A stretch of 64,000 nt of DNA from Maritimibacter sp. DP1N21-5 (GTDB taxonomy: Bacteria > Pseudomonadota > Alphaproteobacteria > Rhodobacterales > Rhodobacteraceae): NCBI RefSeq assembly GCF_019218295.1, contig NZ_JAHUZF010000004.1:124001-188000 (forward strand), in the 5' to 3' direction. The translations under genes were made by a program, and so were the position numbers. Shown piece by piece: positions 2,476 through 29,499 of this stretch; the stretch's first letter is position 1, and each line of letters begins with the position of its first letter. The notes beneath the pieces are model-generated. The model was not told the origin of the DNA. It saw nothing but the letters and a program-made list of their open reading frames with translations, and did not search any database.

Positions 2476-2838
2476 CTGGGCCAAAGCCCCTCTGGATTGT
2501 CGTGACTCAGCCGGTGACGGGCGGGCCGACCGAGGGGACGCGGGCACTATGGCTCGCGCGTCCGCCATCCCTGCCGCGCCCCCTCCGATCCGCCCGGAGG
2601 AGCATGAAAACCATGAAGCGCGGCCAATGAGCGTGAGACAAACGTAATCCCTGCCTGTCCCATGTCCAGTGAACGCTGCATCGCAGCGTATGGTTCCGGG
2701 TGGACAGTAGGGGATTTCCGCGAAGGGATGGATTTGCCGACGGGTTGCACAAAAAACAGGCAAACGCGAGATGCGCTCCCGTCTTGCAAACCCTTTGGAA
2801 GCTTCGCAGGGTCATTCGGAAAACGCGGAGGAAACGCC
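2476..2838. other. 363-bp divergent intergenic region between gpsA and the ABM gene
   Basis: No convincing gene is present. It holds the minus-strand GGAAC-N17-CGTT promoter motif (2672-2697), a small hairpin CGCTGC-ATC-GCAGCG at 2674-2688 that falls inside the promoter spacer, and the GGAGG ribosome binding site of the plus-strand ABM gene at about 2827-2832. The proximal part, about 2476-2600, is very GC-rich and would form a roughly 190-nt leader for gpsA if the promoter call is right. Confidence 0.5.
2672..2697 (-). promoter_or_regulatory. ECF (EcfG-type) promoter of the gpsA-ggpS operon
   Basis: Read on the minus strand this is GGAAC (2697-2693), a 17-bp spacer, and CGTT (2675-2672), an exact match to the GGAAC-N16/17-CGTT consensus known for the alphaproteobacterial general-stress sigma factor EcfG. 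Transcription would start near 2665 and enter gpsA. Two further exact copies, at 25981-26006 and 29474-29499, strengthen the call. No transcription data were available. Confidence 0.6.
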
Positions 2839-3126
2839 ATGCATGGGCTGATCGGAAAATTCATTGCCAAGGAGGGCGAGGGCGCGGCACTCGCGGCGAT
2901 CCTGTCTGAAAACGCGGGCGGGATGATGCCCGGGTGCAGGTCCTATATCGTGGCGCAGGACGCCACCGAACCCGATCATATCTGGGTCACGGAAGTCTGG
3001 GACAGTGCCGAGGCGCACAGGGCGTCGCTGGGTCTGCCGTCGGTGCAGGACGCCATCGCGCGGGCGCGTCCGATCATCGCGGGGATGGAACGGCTGGCCG
3101 AAACCGCGCCCGTGGGCGGGATCTGA
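2839..3126 (+). CDS. Antibiotic biosynthesis monooxygenase (ABM)-domain protein
   Basis: A 95-residue single-domain protein of the dimeric alpha/beta barrel ABM fold. It begins MHGLIGKFIAKEGEGAAL and has the typical core around RSYIVAQDATEPDHIWVTEVWDSAEAHRASL, followed by a C-terminal helix. Such proteins act as small cofactor-free monooxygenases or heme/quinone-handling proteins; the substrate here is unknown. The start at 2839 is preceded by a good GGAGG site, while the longer open frame upstream is non-family sequence. The galM start lies only 3 bp after its stop, so the two are probably cotranscribed. Confidence 0.75.
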   Translation: MHGLIGKFIAKEGEGAALAAILSENAGGMMPGCRSYIVAQDATEPDHIWVTEVWDSAEAHRASLGLPSVQDAIARARPIIAGMERLAETAPVGGI

Positions 3127-3129
3127 CGC

Positions 3130-4119
3130 GTGGCGAAGGTCGACACTTTCGGCATCCTGCCGGACGGCACGCCGGTCGAGAGGGTCACGTTGACCGGCGG
3201 CGGGCTGACCGCGCGTGTGCTGACCTATGGCGCCGTGCTGCAGGACCTGCGGCTTGACGGCATAGATCATCCGCTCGTGCTCGGGGCGGAGGAACTCTTG
3301 CCTTACCTCGGGTCGATGACGTGGTTCGGGGCGCTCGTCGGGCGCTTCGCCAACCGGATCGCAGAAGGTCGGCTGGTGATCGACGGGGTGGTGCATCACC
3401 TCGACCGCAATGAAGGCGGGGTGACCTGCATTCATGGCGGGACAAAAGGCACGGGCCAGCAGGTCTGGACCATAGACACGGCGACCGAGGACCGGCTGGT
3501 GCTTGTCCTTGAGGAACCAGGCGGGCACATGGGGTTCCCGGGCGCGCTGTCCATCAGGCTGGAGATTGCGCTGGCCGGCGACGGTGCCCTGTCCTTCGAC
3601 ATGACGGCCAGGACCGATGCGCCGACAGCGGTGAGCCTTGCGCATCACAGCTATTTCAACCTCGACGACGGGGCGGACATTCTGGGCCATCACCTCTGGA
3701 TCGACGCAGACAGCTTCGTCCCGACGGATCGGCACGGCATCCCGACCGGGCTAACGCCGGTCCGGGCGACACCCTTTGATTTCACCACGGAACGCGCCGT
3801 CGCGCCCGGGGGGATCGATCACAATTTTTGTCTGTCCGATGGCGACAGGCCACTGCATGATGTGGCGCGGCTGACCGGCACGAACGGCCTATCCCTGAGC
3901 GTCGCAACCACCGCACCGGGGCTGCAGGTCTATGACGGGGGCCATATTGCGGATCTGCCCGGCCTTGGTGGTCGGCTCTACGGTCCCCACGCGGGCATCG
4001 CGCTCGAAACGCAGGTCTGGCCGGATGCGCCGAACCAGCCGGGTTTTCCCAAGTGGCGTCTCGACCCCGGCGAGACCTATCGTCACAAAGTGGTCTACCA
4101 CTTCCAAACCCCTCGTTGA
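3130..4119 (+). CDS. galM: Aldose 1-epimerase (mutarotase)
   Basis: A 329-residue cytosolic GalM-family enzyme that interconverts alpha and beta anomers of aldohexoses and pentoses. Family motifs are GALVGRFANRIAEG (about residues 74-87), CIHGG (about 104-108), the catalytic His region SLAHHSYFNL (about 172-181), GIDHNFCL, and the C-terminal catalytic Glu region GIALETQVWPDAPNQPGFP. The start is GTG. It follows the ABM gene by 3 bp and precedes xylB, which supports a role in pentose (xylose/arabinose) use. xylB has its own promoter, so galM is probably not the sole route of xylB transcription. Confidence 0.92.
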   Translation: MAKVDTFGILPDGTPVERVTLTGGGLTARVLTYGAVLQDLRLDGIDHPLVLGAEELLPYLGSMTWFGALVGRFANRIAEGRLVIDGVVHHLDRNEGGVTCIHGGTKGTGQQVWTIDTATEDRLVLVLEEPGGHMGFPGALSIRLEIALAGDGALSFDMTARTDAPTAVSLAHHSYFNLDDGADILGHHLWIDADSFVPTDRHGIPTGLTPVRATPFDFTTERAVAPGGIDHNFCLSDGDRPLHDVARLTGTNGLSLSVATTAPGLQVYDGGHIADLPGLGGRLYGPHAGIALETQVWPDAPNQPGFPKWRLDPGETYRHKVVYHFQTPR

Positions 4120-4147
4120 CAGAACTGCCCCGGGTGCAACGCACGCG

Positions 4148-4176
4148 TTGACTCAATCTGTTAGCGCTAATATTTT
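4148..4176 (+). promoter_or_regulatory. Sigma-70 promoter of xylB with a LacI-type operator in the spacer
   Basis: TTGACT (4148-4153) and TATTTT (4171-4176) are separated by exactly 17 bp. The spacer carries the perfect palindrome TTAGCGCTAA (4161-4170), extended to TGTTAGCGCTAATA (4159-4172), the classic half-site pair of LacI/GalR-family repressors. A repressor bound there would occlude RNA polymerase. The predicted start near 4183 leaves a leader of about 40 nt before xylB. The repressor gene is not in this window. Confidence 0.7.
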
Positions 4177-4223
4177 GACGCGTGAAATAAATGCTCCGCG
4201 CAGACGGGGCGAAGGGAGGATGG

Positions 4224-5687
4224 ATGTATCTGGGTCTCGATCTGGGAACCTCGGGGTTGCGCGCGATCTTGACGGATGGAGAGGGCGCCGTCCTCGGCGT
4301 GGCCGAGGCGCATTATCCGAATCCCCATCCCCATCGCGGCTGGTCCGAACAGGACCCGGCCGATTGGATCAGCGCCTGCGAGACCTGCGTGGCTGAACTG
4401 CGTGCGGCACACGGGGCCGCCTTTGCGGCTCTGCGCGGAATCGGTCTTTCGGGGCAGATGCACGGGGCGACGCTCATCGATGCCCAAGACCGCGTGCTGC
4501 GCCCCGCGATCCTGTGGAACGACACCCGCTCGGCGGCGGAGGCAGCGGCCTTCGACGCCGATCCGATGCTGCGCGAGGTGTCGGCAAACATCGTTTTCCC
4601 CGGCTTCACCGCGCCCAAGCTCGCTTGGGTGGCAAAACACGAGCCGGAGGTCTTCGCGCAGGTCGCCAAGGTGCTCTTGCCCAAGGATTACCTGCGGCTC
4701 TGGCTCACCGGCGAATACGTCTCGGACATGTCCGACGCCGCCGGGACCACCTGGCTCGACGTGGGCAAGCGGGATTGGTCGCAGGCGGCGCTCGACGCCA
4801 CGGGAATGCGGCGCGACCAGATGCCGGAGCTTGTGGAAGGCTCGGCACCGGGCGGGATGCTGCGGACGGCGCTCGCGTCCGACTGGGGCGTGCAAGGCTC
4901 GGTCGTCGTGGCCGGCGGCGGCGGCGACAATGCCGCGGCGGCCTGTGGCGCGGGGTGCTTTGCCGAAGGCATGGGCTTCGTGTCTCTTGGTACGTCCGGA
5001 GTGCTCCTCGCGGCACGGGACAGTTTCGCGCCGGCCCCGGAAAGCGCGGTGCATACCTTCTGTCACGCCGTGCCGGATCGCTGGTATCAGATGGGCGTGA
5101 TCCTCTCGGCCACCGACAGCCTGAACTGGCTCGCGCGCGCGGTGAATTCGGAGCCGGGCAAGCTGGCCCAAGCGCTCCCGGATCGTGCCAGCGGCCCCGG
5201 CGACCTCCTCTTCCTGCCCTATCTCTCGGGCGAGCGGACACCGCATAACTCGGCCAAGCTGCGCGGGGCCTTTGTGGGTCTCGACGTGGCGCAAGGCTCC
5301 GAGGCGTTGACACAGGCGGTCATGGAAGGCGTGGCCTACGCTCTGCGCGACAGCTGGGAAGCACTGAAGTCTACCGGGGCGACGCTCGACAGCGTGCTCG
5401 CCGTCGGCGGCGGGGCGCGGTCGCGTTTGTGGCTCGAAACCATTGCCTCGACGCTGAACCTGCCCCTGTCGCTGCCAGCGAGCGGCGAGTTTGGTGCGGC
5501 GCTGGGCGCGGCGCGGCTGGCGATATGCGCAGACACCAGGGCAGATCCGGCAGATGTCATGACCGCGCCCGAGGTGGCCGAGGTGATCGAACCGGACAGG
5601 GACCATGTGGCCGCCTACGAGGCCGGATATCAACGGTATGCGGCGCTTTATCCGGCGCTCGCGGCGGATGCGGAGCGCGCGGCATGA
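4224..5687 (+). CDS. xylB: Xylulokinase
   Basis: FGGY-family carbohydrate kinase of 487 residues that phosphorylates D-xylulose to D-xylulose 5-phosphate for the pentose phosphate pathway. Motifs: N-terminal MYLGLDLGTSGLRAIL (ATP-binding lobe), GLSGQMHGATL (about residues 84-94, xylulokinase substrate loop), ILWNDTRSAAEA, DAAGTTWLDV, the FGGY signature region SGERTPHN and the C-terminal ATP motif LAVGGGARSRLWLE. ATG 4224 is preceded by GGGAGG and gives the family-typical N-terminus; a longer frame from 4191 is less likely. It is controlled by a LacI-type operator. Its stop overlaps the next start by ATGA. Confidence 0.95.
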   Translation: MYLGLDLGTSGLRAILTDGEGAVLGVAEAHYPNPHPHRGWSEQDPADWISACETCVAELRAAHGAAFAALRGIGLSGQMHGATLIDAQDRVLRPAILWNDTRSAAEAAAFDADPMLREVSANIVFPGFTAPKLAWVAKHEPEVFAQVAKVLLPKDYLRLWLTGEYVSDMSDAAGTTWLDVGKRDWSQAALDATGMRRDQMPELVEGSAPGGMLRTALASDWGVQGSVVVAGGGGDNAAAACGAGCFAEGMGFVSLGTSGVLLAARDSFAPAPESAVHTFCHAVPDRWYQMGVILSATDSLNWLARAVNSEPGKLAQALPDRASGPGDLLFLPYLSGERTPHNSAKLRGAFVGLDVAQGSEALTQAVMEGVAYALRDSWEALKSTGATLDSVLAVGGGARSRLWLETIASTLNLPLSLPASGEFGAALGAARLAICADTRADPADVMTAPEVAEVIEPDRDHVAAYEAGYQRYAALYPALAADAERAA

Positions 5688-6991
5688 CACGGGCCTGGAT
5701 CGGCGTACTTTTCCTTCCGGTAGCGGCAAGCGCGGCGGAGGACACGCCGTTCCGCCCGGACCTTGGCCCCGAGCCGGTCTTTGCGACAACCGAGATGGCC
5801 CGGGTCGAGCTGGGGCACCTCCTGTTCTACGACCCGATCCTGTCGGGCAACCGCAACATCGCCTGCTCCACCTGTCACCACCCGACCCTCGGCACCGCCG
5901 ACGGTGTGTCGCTTTCCATCGGCGAGGGCGGGCACATGATGGGGCCGGAACGACACATGACCGCCGACAACCGCCCCGAGCAGCGCATTCCGCGCAATGC
6001 GCCGGGGCTGTGGAACCTTGGCGCCGAAGAGTTCACCGTGATGTTCCATGACGGGCGGCTCGAAGCCGATTCGAACGAGCCCAACGGCATTCGCACGCCG
6101 CTGGGCGCCGAGATGGTCGAGGGGTTCGACAGCATCCTGTCGGCCCAGTCCATGTTCCCCGTGCTCTCGGGTGACGAGATGGCCGGACATTACTCCGAGA
6201 ACGAGGTGAGCGAGGCCGTGCGCCTTGGCTTCCTCGCATCTGAGGGCGGGGCCTGGGACCGACTGGCCGCACGGGTGGCGGCAATCACTGAATATGCCGA
6301 AGCCTTCGACGCCATCGCGCCGGGTCAGCCGATCACCTTTCCCGAGATTTCCAATGTCGTGGCGGATTTCATCCGGTTCGAATGGCGCGCGACCGACTCG
6401 CTCTTCGACCGGATGATGCGGGGAGAGACCACACTGCCGCCCGAGGCGCAGCGAGGCATGGAGCTTTTCTATGGCGAGGCGGGCTGCGCCTCCTGCCATT
6501 CAGGCTGGCTTCAGACCGACCACGACTTCCACGCCATCGGCATGCCGCAGTTCGGGCCGGGCAAGGCGGCGCGCTTCGAGAACCACAAACGCGACGAAGG
6601 CCGGATGCGGGTGACGGGCGATCCGGCGGATGCCTATGCCTTCCGCACGCCCTCACTTCGGAACGTGACTCTGACCGCGCCCTACGGGCACAACGGGGCT
6701 TATCCCACGCTCGAAGGTGTGATTCGCCAACACCTTGATCCGACGGCGGCGCTGAGGGCCTATGTGCTGGAAACAGCTGCCCTCCCGGCCTTCGACGGTG
6801 CCAACGATACATTCGTCATCGCGAACCCGGACGAGGTCGAGCTAATCGCCGCGGCGAACGACCTGCCGGTGCATCCGCTCCCGGACGAGGACGTGGCTGC
6901 GCTTGTCGCTTTCCTCGAAACCCTCACCGACAAGGCCGAGCGTCTGGGTGTGCCCGACAGTGTGCCGTCGGGACTGCCGGTAGATCGCTAG
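5684..6991 (+). CDS. Di-heme cytochrome c peroxidase (MauG/CcpA family)
   Basis: A periplasmic protein of 435 residues with a short signal peptide (MTRAWIGVLFLPVAASAAED) and two CxxCH heme motifs, CSTCHH at about 61-66 and CASCHS at about 268-273, the layout of bacterial di-heme peroxidases, which reduce H2O2 using a cytochrome c or cupredoxin. It is somewhat longer than classic CcpA (about 330), with an extended middle segment. RTPSLRNVTLTAPYGHNG (about 324-341) is the conserved peroxidase segment, and a Met/Tyr heme ligand cannot be assigned by eye. It overlaps xylB by 4 bp (ATGA), an unexpected partner for a sugar kinase. A MauG-like modifying role is an alternative to H2O2 detoxification. 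Confidence 0.88.
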   Translation: MTRAWIGVLFLPVAASAAEDTPFRPDLGPEPVFATTEMARVELGHLLFYDPILSGNRNIACSTCHHPTLGTADGVSLSIGEGGHMMGPERHMTADNRPEQRIPRNAPGLWNLGAEEFTVMFHDGRLEADSNEPNGIRTPLGAEMVEGFDSILSAQSMFPVLSGDEMAGHYSENEVSEAVRLGFLASEGGAWDRLAARVAAITEYAEAFDAIAPGQPITFPEISNVVADFIRFEWRATDSLFDRMMRGETTLPPEAQRGMELFYGEAGCASCHSGWLQTDHDFHAIGMPQFGPGKAARFENHKRDEGRMRVTGDPADAYAFRTPSLRNVTLTAPYGHNGAYPTLEGVIRQHLDPTAALRAYVLETAALPAFDGANDTFVIANPDEVELIAAANDLPVHPLPDEDVAALVAFLETLTDKAERLGVPDSVPSGLPVDR

Positions 6992-6994
6992 GGA

Positions 6995-8395
6995 CTAGCC
7001 CAGCCGTTCTCGCCACGCGGCGATCTGTTCGCGCACCCGCACGGGGGAGGTGCCGCCATAGCTCATCCGCGACGCGACCGAGGCATCGACGGTCAGCACG
7101 TCATAGACGCCCCCGGTGATGTCCGCATGGACGGATTGCATATCGGCGAGCGACAGGTCGGGCAGGTCGCAGCCCTGTTTCTCGGCCATGGCGACCAGCG
7201 AGCCGGTGACGTGATGGGCGTCCCGGAACGGCAGGCCCAGCTCGCGCACGAGCCAGTCGGCAAGGTCGGTGGCGGTGGAAAAGCCCGACGAGGCGGCGGC
7301 GGCGAGCGAATCTTTGTTCGCGGTCAGGTCGGTGACCATCCCGGTCATGGCGGCCAGCGACAGCATCAGGTTGTCGGCGGCGTCAAAGACCTGTTCCTTG
7401 TCTTCCTGCATGTCCTTGGAATAGGCGAGCGGCAGGCCCTTCATGATCGTGAACAGCGCCACCATCGACCCCATGATCCGCCCGATCTTGGCGCGGATCA
7501 GCTCGGCCGCATCGGGGTTCTTCTTCTGCGGCATGATCGACGAACCCGTCGAGAAGCGGTCCGACAGGGTGACGAAGCGGAACTGGGCCGAGGACCAGAT
7601 CACCAGCTCTTCGGCAAAGCGGCTGAGGTGCAGCGCGCAGATCGTGGCGTTCGAGAGAAATTCCAGCGCATGGTCGCGGTCCGACACCGCGTCGAGGCTA
7701 TTGGCCATGGGCCGGTCGAACCCCAGCGCCTGCGCTGTCATGTGGCGGTCGGTCGGGAACCCGGTGCCCGCGAGCGCGGCAGCGCCAAGGGGCGACTCGT
7801 TCATTCGCACTCGCGCGTCCTGAAACCGCGACTTGTCGCGCGCGAACATCTCGACATAGGCCATCATGTGATGGCCCCAAGTGACCGGCTGCGCGGTCTG
7901 GAGGTGCGTGAACCCAGGCATGACCCAATCCGCGCCCGCCTCGGCCTGATCAAGGAAGGCCCGGATGAGCGCGTCGAGCCCTTCGATCGCCGCGTCCACC
8001 TGATCGCGGACCCAGAGACGGAAGTCGGTCGCGACCTGATCGTTGCGCGACCGCGCGGTGTGCAGACGGCCCGCAGGTTCGCCGATGATCTCCTTCAACC
8101 GCGCCTCCACGTTCATGTGGATGTCTTCGAGCGCGGTGGAATACTGAAACGTCCCGGTCTCGATCTCTGACAGAACCGTGAGAAGCCCTTCCCGGATCGC
8201 TTCCGCATCCTTATCAGAGATGATGCCCTGTGCCGCGAGCATCGCCGCATGGGCGCGCGAGCCGGTGATGTCCTGCCGGGCCATGCGCTTGTCGAACCCG
8301 ATGGAGGCATTGATTGCCTCCATGATCGCATCGGGACCCGCGGCAAAGCGCCCGCCCCACATGGTATTCGCCGAATTTTTGGTGTCGTTTGTCAT
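6995..8395 (-). CDS. argH: Argininosuccinate lyase
   Basis: The last enzyme of arginine synthesis, splitting argininosuccinate into arginine and fumarate; cytosolic homotetramer of the fumarase/aspartase superfamily. At 466 residues it has normal family length. Motifs: WGGRF near the N-terminus, [43 protein letters not shown], and the superfamily signature [12 protein letters not shown] (about 284-295). It faces the preceding peroxidase gene tail-to-tail (3 bp apart) and diverges from tlpA with only 22 bp between the two start codons, so each promoter must overlap the other gene. Confidence 0.97.
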
Positions 8396-8417
8396 GGCAC
8401 GGACCTGGGAGAACTGG

Positions 8418-8981
8418 ATGATCTATCGCACGGCTCTATACGCGGCCCTCCTCATGGGTGCAAACGTGGTCTTCGCGGATACGGCGTCGATGGAGGCGCT
8501 GCGCGAGGGGAGCATGACGAAGCTCATGTTCCATTCGGAGCCGAAGGCGGCGAGCGGGGCGACCTTCACGGACGAGGCGGGGGCCGAACGGTCGCTCGCC
8601 GACTACCGGGGCAAGGTGGTGGTGCTGAACTTCTGGGCCACCTGGTGCGCGCCCTGCCGCCACGAAATGCCCATGCTCGACGCCTTGCAGGCTGAATTCG
8701 GCGGCGAGGATTTCGCGGTGGTGACGGTGGCCACAGGGCGGAACAAGCCGATGGCGGTTCAGAAGTTCTTCGACGAGGTCGGCGTGACGAACCTGCCGAA
8801 ACTCTACGACGCGAAGAAGGTGCTCGCCTCACAGATGGGCGTCATGGGCCTCCCCGTGACGGTGATCCTCGACCGGGAGGGGAACGAGGTCGCGCGGATG
8901 ATGGGCGACGCGGATTGGTCGTCTGAGAGCGCCCGCGCAATCGTCGCGGCGATGATCGGCGCAGAGGGGGCGGGCGGCTAG
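8418..8981 (+). CDS. tlpA: TlpA-family periplasmic thiol:disulfide oxidoreductase
   Basis: A 187-residue thioredoxin-fold protein with an N-terminal export/anchor segment ([20 protein letters not shown]) and the active site [14 protein letters not shown] (CAPC at about 77-80), plus the cis-Pro loop MGLPVTVIL. TlpA/ResA proteins keep apocytochrome or copper-chaperone cysteines reduced in the periplasm. ATG 8418 is preferred because GGGAGA lies at the right distance; an in-frame ATG at 8394 would overlap the argH start on the other strand. Nearby heme-protein genes fit a cytochrome-maturation role, but no target is shown. Confidence 0.88.
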
Positions 8982-9061
8982 GAGCCGTCCACGCAGACAC
9001 GCGCAACGCAGGGGACCAGATAACCCTTTGCACAGCGGCCCGGTTTCGCTAGACCGACCCC

Positions 9062-9472: not shown

Positions 9473-9512
9473 TTTCCGTTTCAAATCAGACAGTCAAAAA
9501 GGAGATATCGTC

Positions 9513-10910: not shown

Positions 10911-11015
10911 TCGCGCGCCGCCCCGGTTCCATGTCGGGGCGGCCCATCCTTCCCTCGCGTCCCCGTTGACAGCCCTGTGCCGCCCGGCAACCATTCCGGG
11001 CAGGGAGGAGCCGTC

Positions 11016-11402: not shown

Positions 11403-11446
11403 TAGACCTGTCCACGCTGAGTTACCCGGATATCGTCTCGCTCGCC

Positions 11447-20528: not shown

Positions 20529-21776
20529 ATGGACACAGCGCGCGGCCAGCAAAGCCTGATCACCCCCGTTCTCGTCGCGGGGTGCATCGTCATCATCGTG
20601 AGCTTCGCGATCCGCGCCAGTTTCGGCGTATTCCAGATCCCCATCGCCGAGGACTTCGGCTGGGCGCGGGCGGATTTCTCGCTCGCCATCGCGATCCAGA
20701 ACCTTGCCTGGGGCATTGGCCAGCCGATCTTCGGCGCGATCGCCGAAAAGATCGGGGATCGAAAGGCCATCGTCATCGGCTCGCTCATGTATGCCGCCGG
20801 GCTGCTCTTGTCGTCCTTCGCGACCACGCCGCTCGCGCACCAGATGCTCGAGTTCATTGTCGGCTTCGGTATTGCGGGCACCGGCTTCGGGGTCATCCTC
20901 GCCGTCGTCGGGCGGGCCTCCTCGGACAAGAACCGCTCGATGTCGCTGGCCATCGCGACGGCGGCGGGCAGTGCCGGGCAGGTCTTTGGCGCGCCGCTTG
21001 CCGAATGGATGTTGTCCTTCATGTCGTGGCAGAGCGTCTTCATCGTCTTCGCAGTGGCGATCATCGCGGTGCTGGCGGCGCTCCCCATGATGCGCGCGCC
21101 CACCGTGTCCCGGATGGAGCTCGAGGAAAGCATGGGCACGGTGCTCAAGCGCGCGTTCCGCGATCCGTCCTATACGCTCATCTTTCTCGGCTTTTTCTCC
21201 TGCGGCTACCAGCTCGCCTTCATCACCGCGCATTTCCCCGCTTTCGTGACCGAGATGTGCGGTGCCATCGACCCCTCCGGAACGCTGGCTTCGATCGGCG
21301 TTTCGACCACCTCGGCACTGGGCGCGGTCGCAATTTCACTGATCGGGGCGGCGAACATCGCCGGAACGCTCTTTGCCGGCTGGATGGGGAACCGCTTCTC
21401 GAAGAAATACCTCCTCGCCGCGATCTATACGGGTCGGACCATTGCCGCGGCCGTCTTCATCCTGATGCCGATCACGCCCACCAGCGTCATCGTCTTCTCA
21501 ATCGTCATGGGGAGTCTCTGGCTCGCCACCGTGCCGCTCACCTCCGGGCTCGTAGCGCATCTCTATGGGTTGCGCTACATGGGCACGCTCTATGGAATCG
21601 TCTTCTTCTCGCACCAGCTGGGCAGCTTCCTTGGCGTCTGGCTGGGCGGACGGATGTATGACCTGACGGGGGACTACACCTTTGTCTGGTGGATCGGCGT
21701 GGGGGTGGGGGCCTTCTCGGCCATCGTCCACCTGCCCATCCGGGAACGGCGCTCGCCGGTGATGGTTCCGGCCTAG
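20529..21776 (+). CDS. MFS permease
   Basis: A 415-residue major facilitator with 12 predicted helices and the loop 2-3 motif GAIAEKIGDRKAIVIG (GxxxDrxGxR type). The N-terminus MDTARGQQSLITPVLVAGCIVIIVSFAIRASFG resembles the monocarboxylate/oxalate-formate type branch of MFS. ATG 20529 has GGAGG upstream. It ends with a 4-bp overlap against the convergent Lrp gene. The substrate is unknown; an organic anion is the best guess from family resemblance. Confidence 0.85.
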   Translation: MDTARGQQSLITPVLVAGCIVIIVSFAIRASFGVFQIPIAEDFGWARADFSLAIAIQNLAWGIGQPIFGAIAEKIGDRKAIVIGSLMYAAGLLLSSFATTPLAHQMLEFIVGFGIAGTGFGVILAVVGRASSDKNRSMSLAIATAAGSAGQVFGAPLAEWMLSFMSWQSVFIVFAVAIIAVLAALPMMRAPTVSRMELEESMGTVLKRAFRDPSYTLIFLGFFSCGYQLAFITAHFPAFVTEMCGAIDPSGTLASIGVSTTSALGAVAISLIGAANIAGTLFAGWMGNRFSKKYLLAAIYTGRTIAAAVFILMPITPTSVIVFSIVMGSLWLATVPLTSGLVAHLYGLRYMGTLYGIVFFSHQLGSFLGVWLGGRMYDLTGDYTFVWWIGVGVGAFSAIVHLPIRERRSPVMVPA

Positions 21777-22361: not shown

Positions 22362-23480
22362 ATGCTCATCGGATGCCCGAAAGAAATCAAGCCGCAGGAA
22401 TACCGCGTCGGCGTGACCCCCGCTGCCGCCGGCGAGGCCGTTTCGCATGGCCACGAGGTGATCATCGAAACGCAGGCGGGGCAGGGCTCGGGCTTCACGG
22501 ACGAGGATTACCGCGCGGTCGGTGCGACCATCGTGAGCACCGCCGAAGAGGTCTTCGCCCGCGCCGACATGGTCGTGAAGGTGAAAGAACCGCAGGCGGT
22601 GGAGCGCAGGCAACTGCGCGAAGGGCAGCTTCTGTTCACCTATCTCCATCTCGCGCCCGATCCGGATCAGACCCGCGACCTTCTGGACAGCGGCGTGACG
22701 GCCATCGCCTATGAAACCGTGCTTGACCGGGATGGCCGCCTTCCCCTGCTCGCGCCGATGTCCGAAGTCGCGGGCAAGCTCGCGCCCCAGGTGGGTGCCT
22801 GGACGCTGCAAAAGGCCAACGGCGGACGCGGGGTTCTGCTGGGCGGTGTGCCCGGGGTGACACCGGGCCGGGTCGTCGTGCTTGGCGGCGGCGTCGTCGG
22901 CACCCAGGCCGCCCGCGTGGCCGCAGGCATGGGCGCGCAGGTCACCGTCTTCGACATGTCGCTGCAGCGCCTGCGTCAGCTCGACGACATGTTCCGGGGA
23001 GAGTTCTCGACCGCCTTTTCTTCGAAAGCGCGACTGGCAGAGGCGCTCTCCAGCGCCGACATGGTGATCGGTGCCGTGCTCATACCCGGAGCCGCGGCAC
23101 CCAAGCTGGTCACGCGCGCCGACCTTGGCCGCATGAAACCGGGGGCCGTGCTCGTCGACGTTGCCATCGACCAGGGCGGGTGCTTCGAAACCTCGCGGCC
23201 CACCACACACCAGGACCCGATCTACGAGGTCGACGGCATCATGCACTATTGCGTCGCCAACATGCCGGGCGCCGTCGCCCGAACCTCGACCCTCGCGCTC
23301 GGCAACGCCACGCTCCCCTACATGCTGCGTCTCGCCGACCTCGGCTGGCGCGAGGCTTGTCTCGCCGACGAGGGCCTTGCCGCCGGGCTCAACACCCACG
23401 CCGGCCAGCTCACCAACTACGCCGTCGGTCGGGCGTTGGAGATCGACGTGATTTCGCCGCAGGTTGCGTTGAAATCATGA
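22362..23480 (+). CDS. ald: Alanine dehydrogenase
   Basis: NAD-dependent L-alanine dehydrogenase of 372 residues that converts alanine to pyruvate and ammonia. It starts [23 protein letters not shown] (typical substrate-site Arg and Lys), then VKVKEPQ (catalytic Lys at about 75), FTYLHLAPD (catalytic His at about 96), and the NAD Rossmann motif [28 protein letters not shown] (about 170-197). The longer upstream frame overlaps lrp and is not family sequence. The gene is paired with a divergent Lrp regulator. Confidence 0.96.
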
Positions 23481-23503
23481 CGAGACATTGTCGGGGAGAG
23501 TGA

Positions 23504-23580
23504 TGGTAGCGTGGGGCGGACTTGAACCGCCGACCCCAGCATTATGAGTGCTGTGCTCTAACCAGCTGAGCTACCACGCC
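23504..23580 (-). tRNA. tRNA-Met (CAT anticodon, elongator type)
   Basis: A 77-nt cloverleaf on the minus strand including an encoded CCA. Acceptor GGCGTGG pairs with CCACGCT (G-U at position 1-72); the D arm is GCTC-AGCTGGTTA-GAGC; the anticodon loop CTCATAA is closed by CAGCA/TGCTG; the T arm is GGCGG-TTCAAGT-CCGCC. The CAT anticodon and GGCG acceptor fit elongator tRNA-Met. A tRNA-Ile2 with modified CAT is possible but usually begins GGGCC. Confidence 0.93.
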
Positions 23581-23653
23581 ATCACAGGGGGGGCAGATAC
23601 CGCCACCTGCGGGGCCTGTCAACACGCATTCGGCAGGAAACGCGCGGTGGTCG

Positions 23654-24118
23654 TCACTGCCTCAGATATTTCGACGAACACCAACCGACGGTGCCGCTCT
23701 GATGCCGCACGCGGACCCATTCTCCGGCGCGTTCGAGGATGCGGACTTCCTCGCCGTTGTACATCGGTCCGATGATGGAATAGCGGGTGCCGGGGCCCGT
23801 GCGCAGGTTGAGGAAACCGTCCCCCGGCGAATAGACGTAGTAATAGGGCGACACCGCCAGCGCGGCGAGGTAGCGGGCGGAACACCAGCCGACCGTGCCG
23901 CTGTCATGGCGCACGCGCACCCAGCTTCCGGCGCTTTCAAGGATGGTGACGCGGCTTCCGTGGCCCATGCGCCCGATGATGTCGAATTGTTCGCCCGGCC
24001 CGGTGCGCAGGTTCAGAAAGCCGTCTCGCGGCGAGTTGACGGCGTGAGTCTGTGCCGTGGCGGGTCCGGCCAGGGTAATGGCAGCGAGGCCTGTGGCGAT
24101 GAAAATCCTGCGGTCCAA
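23654..24118 (-). CDS. Exported protein with two bacterial SH3 domains
   Basis: A periplasmic protein with a signal peptide (DRRIFIATGLAAITLAGPATAQ) and two tandem SH3_3 repeats of about 60 residues, each with DGFLNLRTGPG...IIG.M..G..V.ILE.AG.WVRVRH.SGTVGWCS.+YL. Such domains bind peptidoglycan or metal-rich ligands at the cell envelope. TTG at 24118 was chosen as the start because it follows GGAGGGGAGG and gives a clean signal peptide; an ATG at 24157 would add a non-family leader. It is flanked by tRNA-Met and mscS. Confidence 0.8.
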   Translation of the reverse strand: MDRRIFIATGLAAITLAGPATAQTHAVNSPRDGFLNLRTGPGEQFDIIGRMGHGSRVTILESAGSWVRVRHDSGTVGWCSARYLAALAVSPYYYVYSPGDGFLNLRTGPGTRYSIIGPMYNGEEVRILERAGEWVRVRHQSGTVGWCSSKYLRQ

Positions 24119-24172
24119 TGCGACCTCCCCTCCTGCTGAATGAGGGAAGGATAGCATGGAATCGGGCGCGCG

Positions 24173-25048
24173 CTACTCTGCCGCGCGCTGGGTCTGCGCC
24201 ACGGCGAGCGAGGTGCCGGGATCGGACTGGACCCAGGACACCTGTTGCGGGAAGGGGATCGACAGGCCGGCGGCGTCGAAGCGTTCCTTGACCGCCTTGG
24301 TCATGGCGAACTTCAGGTCCCAGTAGTCGGCGGCGGCGGCCCAGATGCGCATGGTCAGATCGACGGAGGAATCGCCAAGGTTGGTCACGCGCACCCAGGG
24401 CTCCGGGTCGTCCATGACGCGGGCATCGGCCTTTGCCATCTCGAGCATGACCTCCATGGCGCGGTCCATGTCGTCGGAATAATCAATGCCCACGGTCAGG
24501 TCGACGCGGCGGGTGTCATGGGCCGAGTAGTTCGTGATGATCGCGCCCCATGCCTTGCCGTTGGGGACAATGATCTGGATGTTGTCCGGCGTCGCAAGCT
24601 CGGTGAAGAAAAGGTTGATCTCCTTCACGGTGCCCGATGTGCTGTCGATCGAGATGTACTGGCCGTTGCGATAGGGCCGGAAGAGGATGATCATGAAACC
24701 CGCCGCGAGGTCGCCCAGCGTGCCCTGAAGCGCGAGGCCGATGGCCAGCGTTGCGGCGCCGAGCATGGCGACGAGCGAGGTGACTTCGACCCCGAAGACA
24801 TTGAGGACCGTGATCCCCACGATGCCGAGCAGCACCCAGCGCACCATCGAGGCGATGAAGTTCCCGACGGTCGGGTCGATGCGTTTGGCGTTGTCGACGC
24901 GTTTCTTGACCATGCGGCTGATGGCGGCGGCGATGATCCAGCCGACGATGAGGATGAGAAGCGCCTTCACGCCGTCGAGCAGATAGGGGATCAGCTCTCC
25001 GAAGCGGTCGAGCCATGTGGCAACTTGCTGTTGGATTTGCTCTTCCAT
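24173..25048 (-). CDS. mscS: Small-conductance mechanosensitive channel MscS
   Basis: A 291-residue inner-membrane channel that opens on hypo-osmotic shock to release solutes. Three N-terminal helices include the pore-lining TM3 segment VAMLGAATLAIGLALQGTLGDLAAGFMII (about 94-122), with the Ala/Gly packing typical of MscS, followed by the cytoplasmic beta domain (DSTSGTVKEINLFFTEL, PNGKAWGAIITNYSA). It is next to mscL, with a strong terminator between them. Together with ggpS these genes suggest an osmotic-adaptation theme. Confidence 0.93.
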   Translation of the reverse strand: MEEQIQQQVATWLDRFGELIPYLLDGVKALLILIVGWIIAAAISRMVKKRVDNAKRIDPTVGNFIASMVRWVLLGIVGITVLNVFGVEVTSLVAMLGAATLAIGLALQGTLGDLAAGFMIILFRPYRNGQYISIDSTSGTVKEINLFFTELATPDNIQIIVPNGKAWGAIITNYSAHDTRRVDLTVGIDYSDDMDRAMEVMLEMAKADARVMDDPEPWVRVTNLGDSSVDLTMRIWAAAADYWDLKFAMTKAVKERFDAAGLSIPFPQQVSWVQSDPGTSLAVAQTQRAAE

Positions 25049-25089
25049 TATGTCCGGGTCCTTTGGTCTTGCGGTTCTTCGGCAAACGA

Positions 25090-25115
25090 AAAGGGCCCGC
25101 CGGGGCGGGCCCTTT
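25090..25115 (-). terminator. Intrinsic terminator of mscL
   Basis: A perfect 11-bp stem, AAAGGGCCCGC with GCGGGCCCTTT, around a 4-nt loop (25101-25104). On the minus strand it is followed by a T-rich stretch (TTTTCGTTT). It lies just downstream of mscL and upstream of mscS, so it separates the two genes. Confidence 0.85.
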
Positions 25116-25134
25116 GCAGTGAGTCAGTGGTCCG

Positions 25135-25569
25135 TCAGCGCGCCTTGAGCGCGTCGCGGATTTCCGTGAGTAGTGCCACTTCCGGCGGCGGCGGCGGAGC
25201 TTCCTTGGGGGTTTCGACCTTGGGTCCTTCGGCGGCCGCCTTGATCTTGTTGACCATGCGCACGAGCATGAAGACCACGAAGGCGATGATCAGGAAATTG
25301 ATCAGGGCCATGATGAAGCTGCCATAGGCAAAGATCGACGCGCCGGATTCCCGCGCCGCTTCGAGCGATGCGCCCTCGGGGACATCGCCGGAGAGCACGG
25401 CATAGTTGTTGGTGAAGTCGATGCCGCCGGTGAAGAGCCCGATGATCGGGTTGATCAGGTCCGCGACAAGCGACGTGACGATGGCGGTAAAGGCCGCGCC
25501 AACGATAATACCGACGGCCATGTCCATGACATTGCCGCGCGCAATGAAGTCTCTGAATTCCTTGAGCAT
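25135..25569 (-). CDS. mscL: Large-conductance mechanosensitive channel MscL
   Basis: A 144-residue homopentameric membrane channel, the last-resort valve on severe hypo-osmotic shock. It starts [35 protein letters not shown] (N-terminal helix and pore helix TM1 with the GxxGxxxG-type motif), TM2 is [27 protein letters not shown], and the C-terminus is a Pro-rich linker plus a helical bundle ([12 protein letters not shown]). ATG 25569 gives the canonical N-terminus; the longer frame is not used. Confidence 0.96.
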
Positions 25570-25666
25570 TTCGCCCCTCACTGTCCAAAAGCGCCGTTGC
25601 ATCGGCTGTCGCGAATGCTAGCACAATTCGAACATCTGGCAAAGGATCGTTTCCCCACGCGCCAAA

Positions 25667-25694
25667 GGCGGCCGGGAGAGGGCTCCCGACCGCC
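25667..25694 (-). terminator. Intrinsic terminator of the PLDc_N gene
   Basis: GGCGGCCGGGAG (25667-25678) pairs with CTCCCGACCGCC (25683-25694) with one G-T pair and a 4-nt loop. On the minus strand it is followed by TTTGG. It lies between the PLDc_N gene and mscL. Confidence 0.7.
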
Positions 25695-25732
25695 TCATGT
25701 CGTGTCTTGAAGGACCCTGGCCTCAAGAAGCC

Positions 25733-25924
25733 TTACACCGTCCGGGCGCTCGATTTCGGGCCGGCCACGAGCCAGATGATGAAGCCGAGCAGCGGCAGGA
25801 TGATCACAAGCAGGGCCCAGAGAACCTTGGACCCGGTCGAGGCACCCGACGAGAAGATCGAGATCAGCGCCCAGATGTCGAGCGCGAGGAGGATGAGGCC
25901 AAAGAAGCCGGAAAGTTCGAACAT
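25733..25924 (-). CDS. Small membrane protein with PLDc_N (phospholipase D N-terminal-like) domain
   Basis: A 63-residue protein with two helices (MFELSGFFGLILLALDIWALISIFSSG and KVLWALLVIILPLLGFIIWLVAGPKS). The W-x-llvilP-lGfiiWlv pattern is typical of PLDc_N (PF13396), small stand-alone envelope proteins of unknown role. ATG 25924 has GGAGA upstream. A GGAAC-N17-CGTT promoter motif lies 57 bp before the start, so it is probably stress-induced. Confidence 0.85.
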   Translation of the reverse strand: MFELSGFFGLILLALDIWALISIFSSGASTGSKVLWALLVIILPLLGFIIWLVAGPKSSARTV

Positions 25925-25980
25925 GTTTGTCTCCGTTCTGTCTGACACCCTGAGGGGGGCGAGGGAGGAATTGTCCATAG

Positions 25981-26006
25981 AACGCCGGGCAGGGGTTCTT
26001 GGTTCC
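25981..26006 (-). promoter_or_regulatory. ECF (EcfG-type) promoter of the PLDc_N gene
   Basis: On the minus strand: GGAAC (26006-26002), 17-bp spacer, CGTT (25984-25981). This is identical in spacing to the motif before gpsA. The predicted start is near 25974, giving a leader of about 50 nt to ATG 25924. Confidence 0.65.
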
Positions 26007-26180
26007 AAATGGGCGCTCCCCTGCCGATTGCGGGGGGAGTTCTGCCGACGCGGCGGCAAGGTTTCGCTGTCCCTTGGCAAGGCGCTGCTGAAATCGACGC
26101 GCTTGCGTCGGGGCGCTCGCAAAGCCGGAGGCAAGGGCACAGGTTGGACCCGTAAATGATCCGAAACGAAAGGAACGATC

Positions 26181-26600
26181 ATGACATCGAAGAAAACGCT
26201 CGCCCTTCCGACCCTTGCCATTGTGGCCGCATTCGGGGTCACGGGCATCGCCAACGCTCAGGCGATGAGCTTTTCCGGTATTGATGCGAATGCGGATGGC
26301 ACGCTCGACATGACCGAGCTTCAGGCGACCTTCGGCGCGAATGCCGAGCTTGCCTTGCAGACCTATGACATGAACGGCGACGGCATGGTCGAAGTGGACG
26401 AGGCCCGTGAAGTCGCGATGCGCGGGTCGGTTACGACCAACAGCGCGATGGAACAGACTGCGGATGCCGCAGGCGATACGCTCGACCAGACGCTTCAGGA
26501 CGCCGAAGACGTGCTGGACGAAGAAGCCGCGAGCATGGCCGAAGACGGTATGGGGCTCGAACTAGGCGCGGAAGCGACCGGTGAGACCTCCTCGAATTGA
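26181..26600 (+). CDS. Exported EF-hand calcium-binding protein
   Basis: A 139-residue periplasmic protein with a signal peptide (MTSKKTLALPTLAIVAAFGVTGIANAQA) and two EF-hand loops, DANADGTLDMTEL (about 33-45) and DMNGDGMVEVDEA (about 62-74), with Asp/Asn/Glu at the coordinating positions. The C-terminal third is acidic and helical (DQTLQDAEDVLDEEAASMAED). The AAAGGAACG before the start is a ribosome binding site. It is followed by two hairpins, the second a strong terminator. The calcium-dependent role is unknown. Confidence 0.85.
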   Translation: MTSKKTLALPTLAIVAAFGVTGIANAQAMSFSGIDANADGTLDMTELQATFGANAELALQTYDMNGDGMVEVDEAREVAMRGSVTTNSAMEQTADAAGDTLDQTLQDAEDVLDEEAASMAEDGMGLELGAEATGETSSN

Positions 26601-26607
26601 CCCCCGC

Positions 26608-26634
26608 CACTGACGTTCCCCCTTCGCGTCAGTG
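26608..26634 (+). terminator. Hairpin after the EF-hand gene
   Basis: CACTGACG (26608-26615) pairs with CGTCAGTG (26627-26634) over an 11-nt loop. It has no T-run of its own and immediately precedes the stronger terminator. Confidence 0.5.
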
Positions 26635-26637
26635 CTG

Positions 26638-26670
26638 CCCCCGGTTGGCTTGGCCGACCGGGGGATTTTT
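26638..26670 (+). terminator. Intrinsic terminator after the EF-hand gene
   Basis: CCCCCGGTTGGC (26638-26649) pairs with GCCGACCGGGGG (26653-26664), one G-T pair, a 3-nt loop, then ATTTTTG. This is a textbook rho-independent terminator on the plus strand, placed before the convergent pheT. Confidence 0.9.
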
Positions 26671-26684
26671 GTATGTGAACCGGC

Positions 26685-29090
26685 CTAGCCCCGCAGCGTG
26701 CCGCCGGTGGCCTTGGTCACCTTCTCGACGATCCTGGCCGACAGTGCCTCGAGGTCCTTCTCGGTCAGCGTCGCGTCCTTCGGCTGGATGCGCACGGTGA
26801 TGGCGAGCGATTTCAGGCCTTCGTCCCCGAGCTTGCCCCCGGTGAACTGATCGAAGACGCGGACCTCTTCGATCAACACCTTGTCCGCGCCCGCCGCCGC
26901 ATTGACGAGCGTCAGCGCGTCCACATCAGCGGCCACGACGAAGGCGAAGTCGCGTTCGACCGGCTGCAGGTCAGAAATGGTCAACGCGGGCCGCGAGGCC
27001 GAGGTCGATTTCGGGAAGGGAATGGTTTCCGGGTAGAGCGTGAAGGCAACGGCATTGCCTTTCACGCCCATCTCGGCGAGCACCTTGGGGTGCACCTCGC
27101 CGAAGACGCCCATCACCACCTTGGGCCCGAGGCAAAGTTTGCCGTGACGCCCGGGGTGCCACCAGCTCTCTGCCCCGCGCTGGATCTGCATCTTGGCGGG
27201 CGCGCCCATGGCCGACAGGATTGCCTCGGCATCGGCTTTCGCGTCATAGACATCCACCGACCGGCTCTCGCCGTGAACGTCTTTGGGGCCGGTCTTGCCG
27301 ACCAGCAACCCGGAGATACGCAGGGTCTGTTCGCCCGGCTCGCCGCCGTGCCAGGCCGCGCCAACCTCGAAGAGTGCGAGGTCCGCGAACCCGCGCGCCT
27401 GATTGCGGGCGGCGGCTTGCAGAAGACCCGGCAGAAGATCCGGGCGCATGTGCGACATCTCGGACGAGATCGGGTTGTCGAGTTCCGTCGCCCGGCCCTC
27501 GGCCCCGAACATCGCCGCCGACTTCGCGTCGATGAAGCTGTAGGTCACGCATTCGTTGTAGCCCAACGCGGCAGCCGTGCGGCGACCGATGTTCTCGCGC
27601 TTCTGGAGGGGCGTCAGGATCGGCTTTGGTACACCCGTGTTGGCGCGCGCGAGCGGCTTGCCTTCGAGCTTGGTGAGCGAGGCGATGCGCGCGACCTCCT
27701 CGATCAGGTCGGCCTCGCCTTGCACGTCGGGGCGCCATGAGGGGACATGGGCCATGTCGCCCTCCATCTCGAACCCCAGCGCGGTGAGCGACGCGCGCTG
27801 GGTCTCCGGGGCAATCTCCATGCCGACGAGAGACGAACAGCGCGCGGTGTCGAGCTTGTAGGCGCGGGCGGTGTCAGGCACTTCTCCCGCCGTCACCACG
27901 TCCGAGGCCTCGCCCCCGCAGAGGTCGAGGATCATCTGGGTGGCCAGTTCGATGGCCAGCGGGTTGAACGCCGGGTCGATGCCGCGTTCGTTGCGGTAGC
28001 GCGCGTCCGAGTTGATCTTGAGCGCGCGGCCCGTCTTGGCGATCTGGATGGTGTCCCAGACGGCGGCCTCGACGAACACGTTCACGGTGTCCTCGGTGCA
28101 GCCGGTTTCCTCGCCCCCCATGATGCCCGCAACGCTTTCAACGCCATGGTCGTCCGAAATCACGACGGCGCCGGGGGCGCAGGTATAGGTCTTTTCGTCG
28201 AGCGCGAGCAGCGTCTCGCCGCCCACGGTCTTGTGGATGCGCAGGTTGCCATGGACCTTGTCCGCATCAAAGACGTGCAGCGGGCGGTTCTGGTCGTAGG
28301 TGAAGAAGTTGGTCACATCGACGAGCGCCGAGATCGGGCGCAGACCGATGGCCTTGAGCCGCTGTTGCAGCCAGACGGGCGAGGGGCCGTTCTTGACGCC
28401 CCGGATCACCCGTCCCTGGAATATGTGACAGCCATTCTCGCCCTCGGTATCGCCGTCGATGGTGACGGTGATCGGGCAGGGGAAAGTGCCTTCTACATGC
28501 GCGGTCGGCTCGGGCTTCAAAGTGCCCAGACCCCGCGCGGCGAGGTCACGGGCGATGCCCCGGACCCCCAGCGCATCGGGGCGGTTCGGGGTGATGGCGA
28601 TCTCGATGACCGGGTCGACCCGCGCCGGATCGTTCGCCGCGAGCCAGTCGATGAACTTCTGCCCGACCTCGCCGGAGGGCAATTCGATGATGCCGTTGTG
28701 TTCGTCCGACAGCTCAAGCTCGCGTTCCGACGCCATCATGCCGTGGCTTTCGACGCCGCGGATCTTGCCCACCGACAGCGTCGTGTCGATGCCGGGGACG
28801 TAATCGCCGGGTTTGGCCAGAACGACCGTAATTCCGGCGCGCGCATTGGGCGCACCGCAGACGATGGTCTTGTCGCCCTCGTCGGTTTCCACCGTGCAGA
28901 CGCGCAGCCGGTCGGCGTCGGGGTGTTGTTCGGCGTGCTTGATCCTGGCCAGCGTAAAGGTCGACAGCTTGTCACCGGGGTTCTCGATCCCCTCGACCTC
29001 CAGACCGAGGTCGGTCAGCGTTTCCGCGATCTCGTCAACCGAGGCGGTGGTGTCGAGGTGGTCGTGAAGCCACGAGAGGGTGAATTTCAT
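26685..29090 (-). CDS. pheT: Phenylalanine--tRNA ligase beta subunit
   Basis: The large subunit of the alpha2-beta2 phenylalanyl-tRNA synthetase, 801 residues, normal length. It contains the N-terminal MKFTLSWLHDHLDT, the tRNA-binding OB domain (KIKHAEQHPDADRLRVC type), the B3/B4 editing domain (ALVDVTNFFTYDQNRPLHVFDADKV), the B5 domain (SLVGMEIAPETQRASLTALGFEM) and the C-terminal anticodon-binding FDX-ACB domain (ISDLQPVERDFAFVV). ATG 29090 is the family start. In this genome pheT is separated from pheS by three extra genes. Confidence 0.96.
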   Translation of the reverse strand: MKFTLSWLHDHLDTTASVDEIAETLTDLGLEVEGIENPGDKLSTFTLARIKHAEQHPDADRLRVCTVETDEGDKTIVCGAPNARAGITVVLAKPGDYVPGIDTTLSVGKIRGVESHGMMASERELELSDEHNGIIELPSGEVGQKFIDWLAANDPARVDPVIEIAITPNRPDALGVRGIARDLAARGLGTLKPEPTAHVEGTFPCPITVTIDGDTEGENGCHIFQGRVIRGVKNGPSPVWLQQRLKAIGLRPISALVDVTNFFTYDQNRPLHVFDADKVHGNLRIHKTVGGETLLALDEKTYTCAPGAVVISDDHGVESVAGIMGGEETGCTEDTVNVFVEAAVWDTIQIAKTGRALKINSDARYRNERGIDPAFNPLAIELATQMILDLCGGEASDVVTAGEVPDTARAYKLDTARCSSLVGMEIAPETQRASLTALGFEMEGDMAHVPSWRPDVQGEADLIEEVARIASLTKLEGKPLARANTGVPKPILTPLQKRENIGRRTAAALGYNECVTYSFIDAKSAAMFGAEGRATELDNPISSEMSHMRPDLLPGLLQAAARNQARGFADLALFEVGAAWHGGEPGEQTLRISGLLVGKTGPKDVHGESRSVDVYDAKADAEAILSAMGAPAKMQIQRGAESWWHPGRHGKLCLGPKVVMGVFGEVHPKVLAEMGVKGNAVAFTLYPETIPFPKSTSASRPALTISDLQPVERDFAFVVAADVDALTLVNAAAGADKVLIEEVRVFDQFTGGKLGDEGLKSLAITVRIQPKDATLTEKDLEALSARIVEKVTKATGGTLRG

Positions 29091-29157
29091 CGAGACGGTC
29101 CTTTGCGCGTGCCTCGCGCGATTTACGGCAATTGGCCGGGATTGAAAAGCCTGCGGC

Positions 29158-29439
29158 TCAGGGTTCGGCCCGTTGTGCAAGGTATTCGACATGCCCCATG
29201 CGATAGAGGCGGATCTCGCGCAGCAATCGAAGGCTGGGCTTGGCGGCGAAGAGCAGGGAGCCTGCGAGGTAAACCCAGATCACCGTCGCTTCGTCCACCC
29301 CGAGGATATACATGAGCGACCCCGCGACGAAGGCGAGCGACGCGCCGAAGTCCACGGCGGTATAGATCAATTGGAAGCGGGCATAGACCGTTCTGGACGC
29401 TTCGCTGCGTTGTCGGTTGGCATGGCGAAAAAGACCCAT
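29158..29439 (-). CDS. YrhK-domain small membrane protein (copy 1)
   Basis: A 93-residue protein with two helices (FGASLAFVAGSLMYILG and ATVIWVYLAGSLLFAAKPSLRLLREI). It is clearly homologous to the gene at 29935-30213: both share RSEASR..YAR(F/Y), a central pair of helices, and AGSLLFAAKPS/GSLAFAAKPT.RL.RE(I/V).LYR. The pattern resembles YrhK-like proteins (PF14145), of unknown function. Its start is 35 bp downstream of a GGAAC-N17-CGTT motif, which points to stress-sigma control. Confidence 0.8.
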   Translation of the reverse strand: MGLFRHANRQRSEASRTVYARFQLIYTAVDFGASLAFVAGSLMYILGVDEATVIWVYLAGSLLFAAKPSLRLLREIRLYRMGHVEYLAQRAEP

Positions 29440-29473
29440 GGGACCTCCGTTTGTCTGGCGTTGCGACGCGCCT

Positions 29474-29499
29474 AACGAGAGGGCTCCGGGAGAAGTTCC
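29474..29499 (-). promoter_or_regulatory. ECF (EcfG-type) promoter of the first YrhK gene
   Basis: On the minus strand: GGAAC (29499-29495), 17-bp spacer, CGTT (29477-29474). The predicted start is near 29467, giving a leader of about 28 nt to ATG 29439. Read-through would also reach pheT. Confidence 0.65.

Follow-up and report, generated by a model that had tools for sequence, protein, structure and literature searches.

Introduction

The alphaproteobacterial general stress response is described in a published model as a switch in which NepR sequesters the sigma factor EcfG, phosphorylated PhyR (PhyR~P) binds NepR, and EcfG joins RNA polymerase (PMC5830050; this and all other papers are cited from the passages covered). 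Reported EcfG targets include csbD and osmC in Sphingopyxis granuli (PMC7083833), and EcfG control has also been published for trehalose synthesis and for mscS (PMC6599016, PMC7083833). In Bacillus subtilis, yrhK belongs to the sigV operon and is under an extracytoplasmic function (ECF) sigma factor (PMC8287880).

Here, we analyzed a 64,000-nucleotide stretch of Maritimibacter sp. DP1N21-5 (positions 124001 to 188000 of contig 4 in a 3.86-Mb genome of seven contigs; hereafter, the window). Three GGAAC-N17-CGTT elements in it precede the gpsA-ggpP-ggpS operon, a gene for a small PLDc_N membrane protein, and a gene for a YrhK membrane protein, YrhK1. We predict, with a probability of about 90%, that these sites serve as promoters in the general stress response of Alphaproteobacteria. 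The basis in hand is the motif, the genes of the regulatory machinery, the enrichment upstream of genes, and the conservation across species; the partner switch, EcfG binding, and stress induction in this strain are inferred from known systems.

The genome shares with the described PhyR-NepR-EcfG systems the genes for the three regulators and the HWE/HisKA_2 kinases, the divergent layout, and the GGAAC-N16/17-CGTT promoter motif, and csbD and osmC are among the putative targets, as in S. granuli (PMC7083833). In contrast, the osmolyte synthesis reported for those systems is that of trehalose (PMC6599016), whereas glucosylglycerol genes are found here. S. granuli TFA likewise carries two EcfG and two NepR per genome (PMC7083833), but here a separate phyR, nepR, and kinase gene accompanies each EcfG, and the second set is not a recent copy. 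Apart from this doubled core, we see no departure from the published model in the sequence. A switch of this type is well known, but little work exists on these targets or on this group of bacteria. In a literature search with few subscription papers in scope, EcfG and glucosylglycerol were not found together, and neither gpsA-ggpP-ggpS nor YrhK was found as an EcfG target in the passages and searches covered. For the order Rhodobacterales, the analysis supplies a predicted EcfG regulon with about 50 sites that are promoter-placed; its predicted outputs comprise a compatible solute along with protective and small membrane proteins. General stress would thereby be connected to the making of a salt-protecting solute and to two membrane protein families that are uncharacterised (PLDc_N peptides and YrhK), and the footprints pinpoint positions at which 5' ends can be mapped.

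Distribution of the motif in the window and the genome

An exact scan of the window found GGAAC-N17-CGTT exactly three times, always on the minus strand, which reproduced the positions, strand, and spacing given in a first-pass annotation of this DNA (Table 1). As that annotation had also stated, each site points into a minus-strand gene (gpsA, PLDc_N, and YrhK1); all three lie outside called genes, and their −10 boxes end 196, 56, and 34 bp, respectively, from the predicted start codons. In 100 dinucleotide shuffles of the window, the mean was 0.61 N17 matches, and two shuffles reached three. Genes were called with our own codon-usage script, checked against the window genes by eye alone; under these calls, intergenic DNA makes up 6,079 of the 64,000 bases, and about 0.06 intergenic N17 matches are expected (scaled from the shuffles, with even density assumed), in agreement with the annotation's estimate of well under one. 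When spacings from N15 to N18 were allowed, five matches were found against 2.29 expected, and 10 of the 100 shuffles reached five. The additional matches were an N15 at 21279 (plus strand) and an N16 at 21745 (minus strand), the latter within a called gene.

Across the genome, GGAAC-N16/17-CGTT gave 102 matches, against 71 for its reversed-pattern control, and the spacing control GGAAC-N18/19-CGTT gave 39, against 73 for its reversed pattern. Placement relative to genes covered 100 of the 102 N16/17 matches (two were unplaced) and 37 of the 39 N18/19 matches (the missing two are on contig 7); coding density in the fetched stretches was 0.87. The annotation had raised the possibility that the motifs are equally common inside genes. 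This was contradicted by the scan, in which 61 of 100 placed N16/17 matches were intergenic, compared to 5 of 37 for N18/19 (Fisher p = 6.6e-7). Similarly, 52 of 100 were promoter-placed, that is, followed within 300 bp by a start on the same strand, compared to 2 of 37 for N18/19 (Fisher p = 1.4e-7); nine of the 61 intergenic matches had no such start within that distance. At the promoter-placed sites, the median distance from the −10 box to the start codon was 36 bp (20–70 bp in 40 of 52), and a C directly followed GGAAC in 29 of 52, compared to 6 of 39 genic matches. Eighteen of these sites were N16 and 34 were N17; the spacing of exactly 17 claimed earlier therefore applies to the three window sites, but N16 is also used genome-wide.

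The first genes downstream of the 52 sites were searched against Pfam in 47 cases, and the remaining five (phyR, nepR, gpsA, PLDc_N, and YrhK1) were covered by separate profile searches. The Pfam families found included CsbD, OsmC, Dps-like ferritin, DJ-1/PfpI, PF16242 (pyridoxamine-oxidase-like), Hva1_TUDOR, DUF883, transglycosylase-associated protein, hemerythrin, and PhoH, which are families associated with stress.

Two PhyR-NepR-EcfG loci

The regulon reading of the annotation depended on an EcfG homologue being present in the genome; phyR, nepR, and ecfG were all found, twice. A profile search of the genome gave two NepR matches over the cut-off, one on contig 3 (core 1) and one on contig 6 (core 2). 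After each nepR come an EcfG-type sigma gene and then a HisKA_2/HWE kinase gene (four HWE matches were found genome-wide), while phyR lies divergently on the opposite strand. The PhyR-family proteins, which have both sigma-like and receiver domains, scored 360.5 and 346.9 bits (cut-off 240). The sigma factors matched NF009198 (PRK12546) with 315.6 and 311.4 bits (cut-off 270) and have Sigma70_r2 and r4_2 domains; from their place beside nepR and phyR, we infer that these PRK12546 proteins are EcfG. Autoregulatory motifs are present at the cores. Between nepR and phyR, core 1 carries a pair of exact motifs that overlap, one per direction, and core 2 has the same divergent layout, solely with CGTA replacing CGTT.

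Core 2 differs from core 1 (62.6% identity for PhyR and 67.4% for EcfG), and its PhyR groups with that of a genome from another genus, G009 (support 92/87), while the EcfG tree leaves its placement unsettled. Because of this divergence and the PhyR grouping, core 2 is not a recent copy of core 1, and it may, judging from these comparisons, have been acquired from outside. We also considered that the core 2 EcfG uses N16 and the core 1 EcfG uses N17. This was set aside, since core promoters are N16 in several relatives with a single nepR and both spacings are promoter-placed in this genome. Core 2 (L002/L035, contig 6, about 190.7–195 kb) adjoins a Dps-like gene.

Conservation of the three predicted promoters

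Homologues of PLDc_N were found in 15 of 41 genomes, and an exact motif was located no more than 400 bp upstream in eight of the 15 loci, namely in 6/6 from the genus and 2/9 from further genomes. In the genus, the boxes are kept at a distance of 47–63 bp while the spacers differ, which supports their reading as EcfG promoters. Site 2 is almost certainly such a promoter. In three genomes (G008, G016, and G017), PLDc_N lies 4.5–5 kb from nepR.

The YrhK1 promoter was exact in all three orthologues (in G000, the genome of the window, and in the genus mates G004 and G005; 74–100% identity), always 34 bp upstream, and we consider site 3 very probably an EcfG promoter. This does not extend to the YrhK family in general, which we rejected as an EcfG target: among 12 other YrhK genes, an upstream motif was observed in one (L063), whose genome has no NepR match. 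From the family name, we take B. subtilis yrhK and PF14145 to be one family. The sigV operon (PMC8287880) would then be a parallel, in that an ECF sigma factor controls a gene of the YrhK family, as predicted here; in contrast, SigV responds to lysozyme via another circuit, and YrhK1 is situated between pheS and pheT, together with ASCH and YrhK2 genes. In all seven genus genomes with a YrhK match, the interval from pheS to pheT contains YrhK genes, frequently accompanied by an ASCH gene, and its contents vary between genomes. In a simple scan of the gap between YrhK1 and pheT, neither a terminator nor a sigma70-like promoter was detected, so read-through into pheT is possible.

Site 1 was described by the annotation as lying upstream of a gpsA-ggpS osmolyte operon. 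It does lie there, but the operon is gpsA-ggpP-ggpS, with ggpP in between. The ggpS product was told apart from the trehalose synthase OtsA by its scores of 659 bits for TIGR02398 (cut-off 569) and 434.1 bits for TIGR02400 (below the cut-off of 564.85). Glucosylglycerol phosphate is the presumed substrate of GgpP from the operon context, the family assignment as such being S6PP HAD alone. Glucosylglycerol is a salt-protecting compatible solute.

Promoter 1 was exact in five of the eight genus loci (G000, G001, G003, G004, and G005; G001–G007 are the genus mates). For a wider comparison, the named ggp loci are the best 80 of 471 relatives, of which 78 with full upstream sequence were used; the region scanned extended 1,040–1,750 bp before ggpP, and gpsA is directly upstream of ggpP in 72 of the 78 and not in six. 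On the coding strand, N16 motifs were found in eight loci and N17 motifs in six, compared to 0–1 at each of the 14 other spacings between 10 and 25. Thirteen of the 14 motif-bearing loci are outside Maritimibacter (13 of 76 such regions) and belong to Salipiger (four), Mangrovicoccus (two), Donghicola, Tropicimonas, Pseudoruegeria, and others; because genera recur, they are not all independent. In all 13, gpsA follows on the same strand, at 38–170 bp in 12 and at 356 bp in L152 (Tropicimonas sediminicola). In this last locus (3365–3800), an N16 motif precedes, in order and on one strand, a PLDc_N gene (70% identical to that of the window) and gpsA-ggpP; two separate targets of the window thus appear joined behind one predicted promoter. 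On the strand opposite gpsA in the named loci (L100–L179), exact N16 motifs in 6/78 and N17 motifs in 4/78 point away from it (counted separately for each spacing, so that some loci may be in both sets); the divergent neighbor of gpsA may therefore be a conserved EcfG target.

Two further elements are located at site 1. A palindrome lies inside the spacer and −10 box of the promoter, and its core GCTGC-NNN-GCAGC recurs at the same place in the genus, as a perfect copy in four of eight loci and as a one-mismatch copy in the remaining four. Nineteen nucleotides after the palindrome start, a sigma70-like element is found at one fixed offset in 8/8 loci, as TTGnnn-N16-TAnnnT in six and as TGGACA-N16-TACGTT in two, including the window. 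The background for the TTG/CTG form was 17 of 2963 windows of 70 bp, and a stricter sigma70 scan called no sigma70-type site at 2641..2668. From these patterns, the ggp operon probably also has a housekeeping promoter, for which the palindrome could be the operator. Site 1 is the weakest of the three, because it is exact in five of eight genus loci and overlaps with a second conserved element. The housekeeping promoter and palindrome lower its weight without removing it, and site 1 remains a likely EcfG promoter.

The gpsA leader (140–160 nt; window 2476–2635, minus strand) has sequence blocks and a possible hairpin that are kept across the eight genus loci. Consensus folding of the eight leaders gave 30 pairs, 11 of them with a double change; the RNAalifold covariation term was 0, and a second alignment was shifted. 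No Rfam family matched the leader, which argues against a known riboswitch.

Points against the reading and alternative explanations

Several observations weigh against an EcfG regulon. In R. sphaeroides, the one member of the Rhodobacterales for which an experiment was found, PhyR reportedly played no major part in general stress (PMC5830050). In the present genome, 39 of the 100 placed matches fall inside genes, 18 of the 47 scanned downstream genes match no Pfam family, and other downstream genes are metabolic or transport genes (solute-binding proteins, aldehyde dehydrogenases, a formate/nitrite transporter, a cytochrome oxidase subunit, and an acyl-CoA dehydrogenase); some sites before the latter may be chance matches. 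Raw counts show a small excess in G001–G007 (535 N16/17 compared to 442 N18/19), and the reversed pattern used as a control outnumbers the motif in 18 of 25 genomes, the exceptions being G000–G005 and G011; outside these exceptions, the control therefore gives no support for the motif. At the level of single loci, 7/15 PLDc_N genes have no exact motif inside 400 bp, G006 and G007 have no PLDc_N match at all, and 63/76 ggp regions outside Maritimibacter have no exact N16/17 motif. Within the genus, the ggp boxes are degenerate in 3/8 loci (one mismatch in G006, −10 lost in G007, and both lost in G002), and the palindrome and sigma70-like promoter persist there. We discarded raw whole-genome counts as stand-alone evidence: their direction agrees (484 N16/17 compared to 417 N18/19 in eight more genomes of the family in which NepR was matched, the NepR of G008 being below the family cut-off, and 560 compared to 598 in nine without such a match), but the genic fraction and the higher control speak against such a use.

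Random box pairs that happen to precede genes would fit the genic matches and the two shuffles that reached three, but they would not be expected to show an intergenic excess over N18/19, boxes retained by genus mates at a similar distance despite changed spacers, or a preference for N16 and N17 over every other spacing in the ggp regions; chance is thus a very remote explanation. For site 1 alone, the fixed sigma70-like element and the decay of the EcfG boxes in three loci would agree with a ggp operon run mainly by a housekeeping promoter and a palindrome-binding regulator, with EcfG boxes that are secondary or being lost. The exact motifs outside Maritimibacter, each with a same-strand gpsA, argue against this, and we consider it improbable, although not negligibly so. 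It could also be that the divergent EcfG of contig 6 reads the three sites instead of the genus-wide EcfG of contig 3, since both cores are complete and the motif does not discriminate between them. This is quite unlikely: the genus mates G001–G005 retain the PLDc_N site and, as in all of G001–G007, have a single NepR match each, N16 is the spacing of all four exact motifs found within 15 kb of sequence around core 2, as opposed to N17 in the window, and the divergent sites belonging to core 2 itself carry CGTA. Recognition of the three sites as general stress promoters thus remains the preferred reading, and the regulon proposed in the first-pass annotation is supported by the machinery genes, the upstream enrichment, and the cross-species conservation.

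Predicted mechanism

By analogy with the published model, NepR would hold EcfG in unstressed cells. A HisKA_2/HWE sensor kinase would lead to the phosphorylation of PhyR, whose sigma-like domain would draw NepR away and free EcfG, and EcfG would then direct RNA polymerase to GGAAC-N16/17-CGTT. This would raise gpsA-ggpP-ggpS, for the formation of glycerol-3-phosphate and then glucosylglycerol, along with the PLDc_N membrane peptide, the YrhK membrane protein, and possibly pheT by read-through, and about 49 other promoter-placed sites would respond together.

A more tentative proposal, which we hold to be somewhat less probable than its negation, is that the ggp promoter of Maritimibacter is composite, that glucosylglycerol synthesis is an EcfG general-stress output in many marine Rhodobacterales, and that a second, foreign-looking PhyR-NepR-EcfG-kinase core is present in addition. 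Such a promoter would consist of an EcfG box pair enclosing a palindromic operator, followed by a conserved sigma70-like promoter and a conserved, possibly structured leader, and would integrate osmotic and general-stress signals at one place.

Features of the loci and neighboring genes

Table 1. Coordinates of predicted promoters, genes, and other elements (window positions unless a contig is named)
Feature	Position	Strand	Remark
EcfG-type promoter 1	2672..2697 (GGAAC 2693-2697, CGTT 2672-2675)	-	upstream of gpsA-ggpP-ggpS
ggpS 5' part, glucosylglycerol-phosphate synthase	1..574	-	continues past the left edge of the window
ggpP-like HAD phosphatase (S6PP family)	575..1363	-	PF05116, 142.3 bits
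gpsA, NAD(P)H-dependent glycerol-3-phosphate dehydrogenase	1360..2475	-	NF000942, 364.7 bits (cut-off 257)
Sigma70-like promoter TGGACA-N16-TACGTT	2641..2668	-	just downstream of promoter 1
Palindrome ACGCTGC-GAT-GCAGCGT	2673..2689	.	inside spacer and −10 of promoter 1
mscS	24173..25048	-	profile match
mscL	25135..25569	-	profile match
Sigma70-like promoter TTGCCA-N16-TAGCAT	25615..25642	-	ahead of mscL; 9/12 consensus bases
14-bp hairpin, possible attenuator	25665..25696	-	between PLDc_N and mscL
PLDc_N small membrane protein (63 aa)	25733..25924	-	PF13396, 42.3 bits
EcfG-type promoter 2	25981..26006	-	upstream of PLDc_N gene
pheT	26685..29090	-	67 bp after YrhK1
YrhK1 membrane protein (93 aa)	29158..29439	-	PF14145, 48.0 bits
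YrhK region	29158-30213	-	
EcfG-type promoter 3	29474..29499	-	upstream of YrhK1
Short gene and bacteriophytochrome	L280:1274-3916 and 3861-4559, contig 6 about 314.8-318.1 kb		

In five of six genus loci, mscL and mscS come after PLDc_N; in G002, mscS alone does. This neighborhood recalls the control of mechanosensitive channels by general stress, EcfG-dependent mscS having been published (PMC7083833, PMC6599016), but in the window, a hairpin and a sigma70-like promoter part PLDc_N from mscL. The 106-nt region of the hairpin has a minimum free energy of −49.1 kcal/mol (z = −2.99), and a terminator scan did not call it a terminator. We tried mscL and mscS as regulon members; the gene order is kept, but the two intervening elements favor a separate start, and the genes were therefore not counted.

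On contig 6, an EcfG-type site at 318009 precedes a short gene and then a gene for a bacteriophytochrome of 880 aa, whose domains include an HWE kinase and a receiver. The short gene resembles a heme oxygenase by eye and has no Pfam match. This arrangement suggests red light as an input into the stress response, with the phytochrome locus also being its output.

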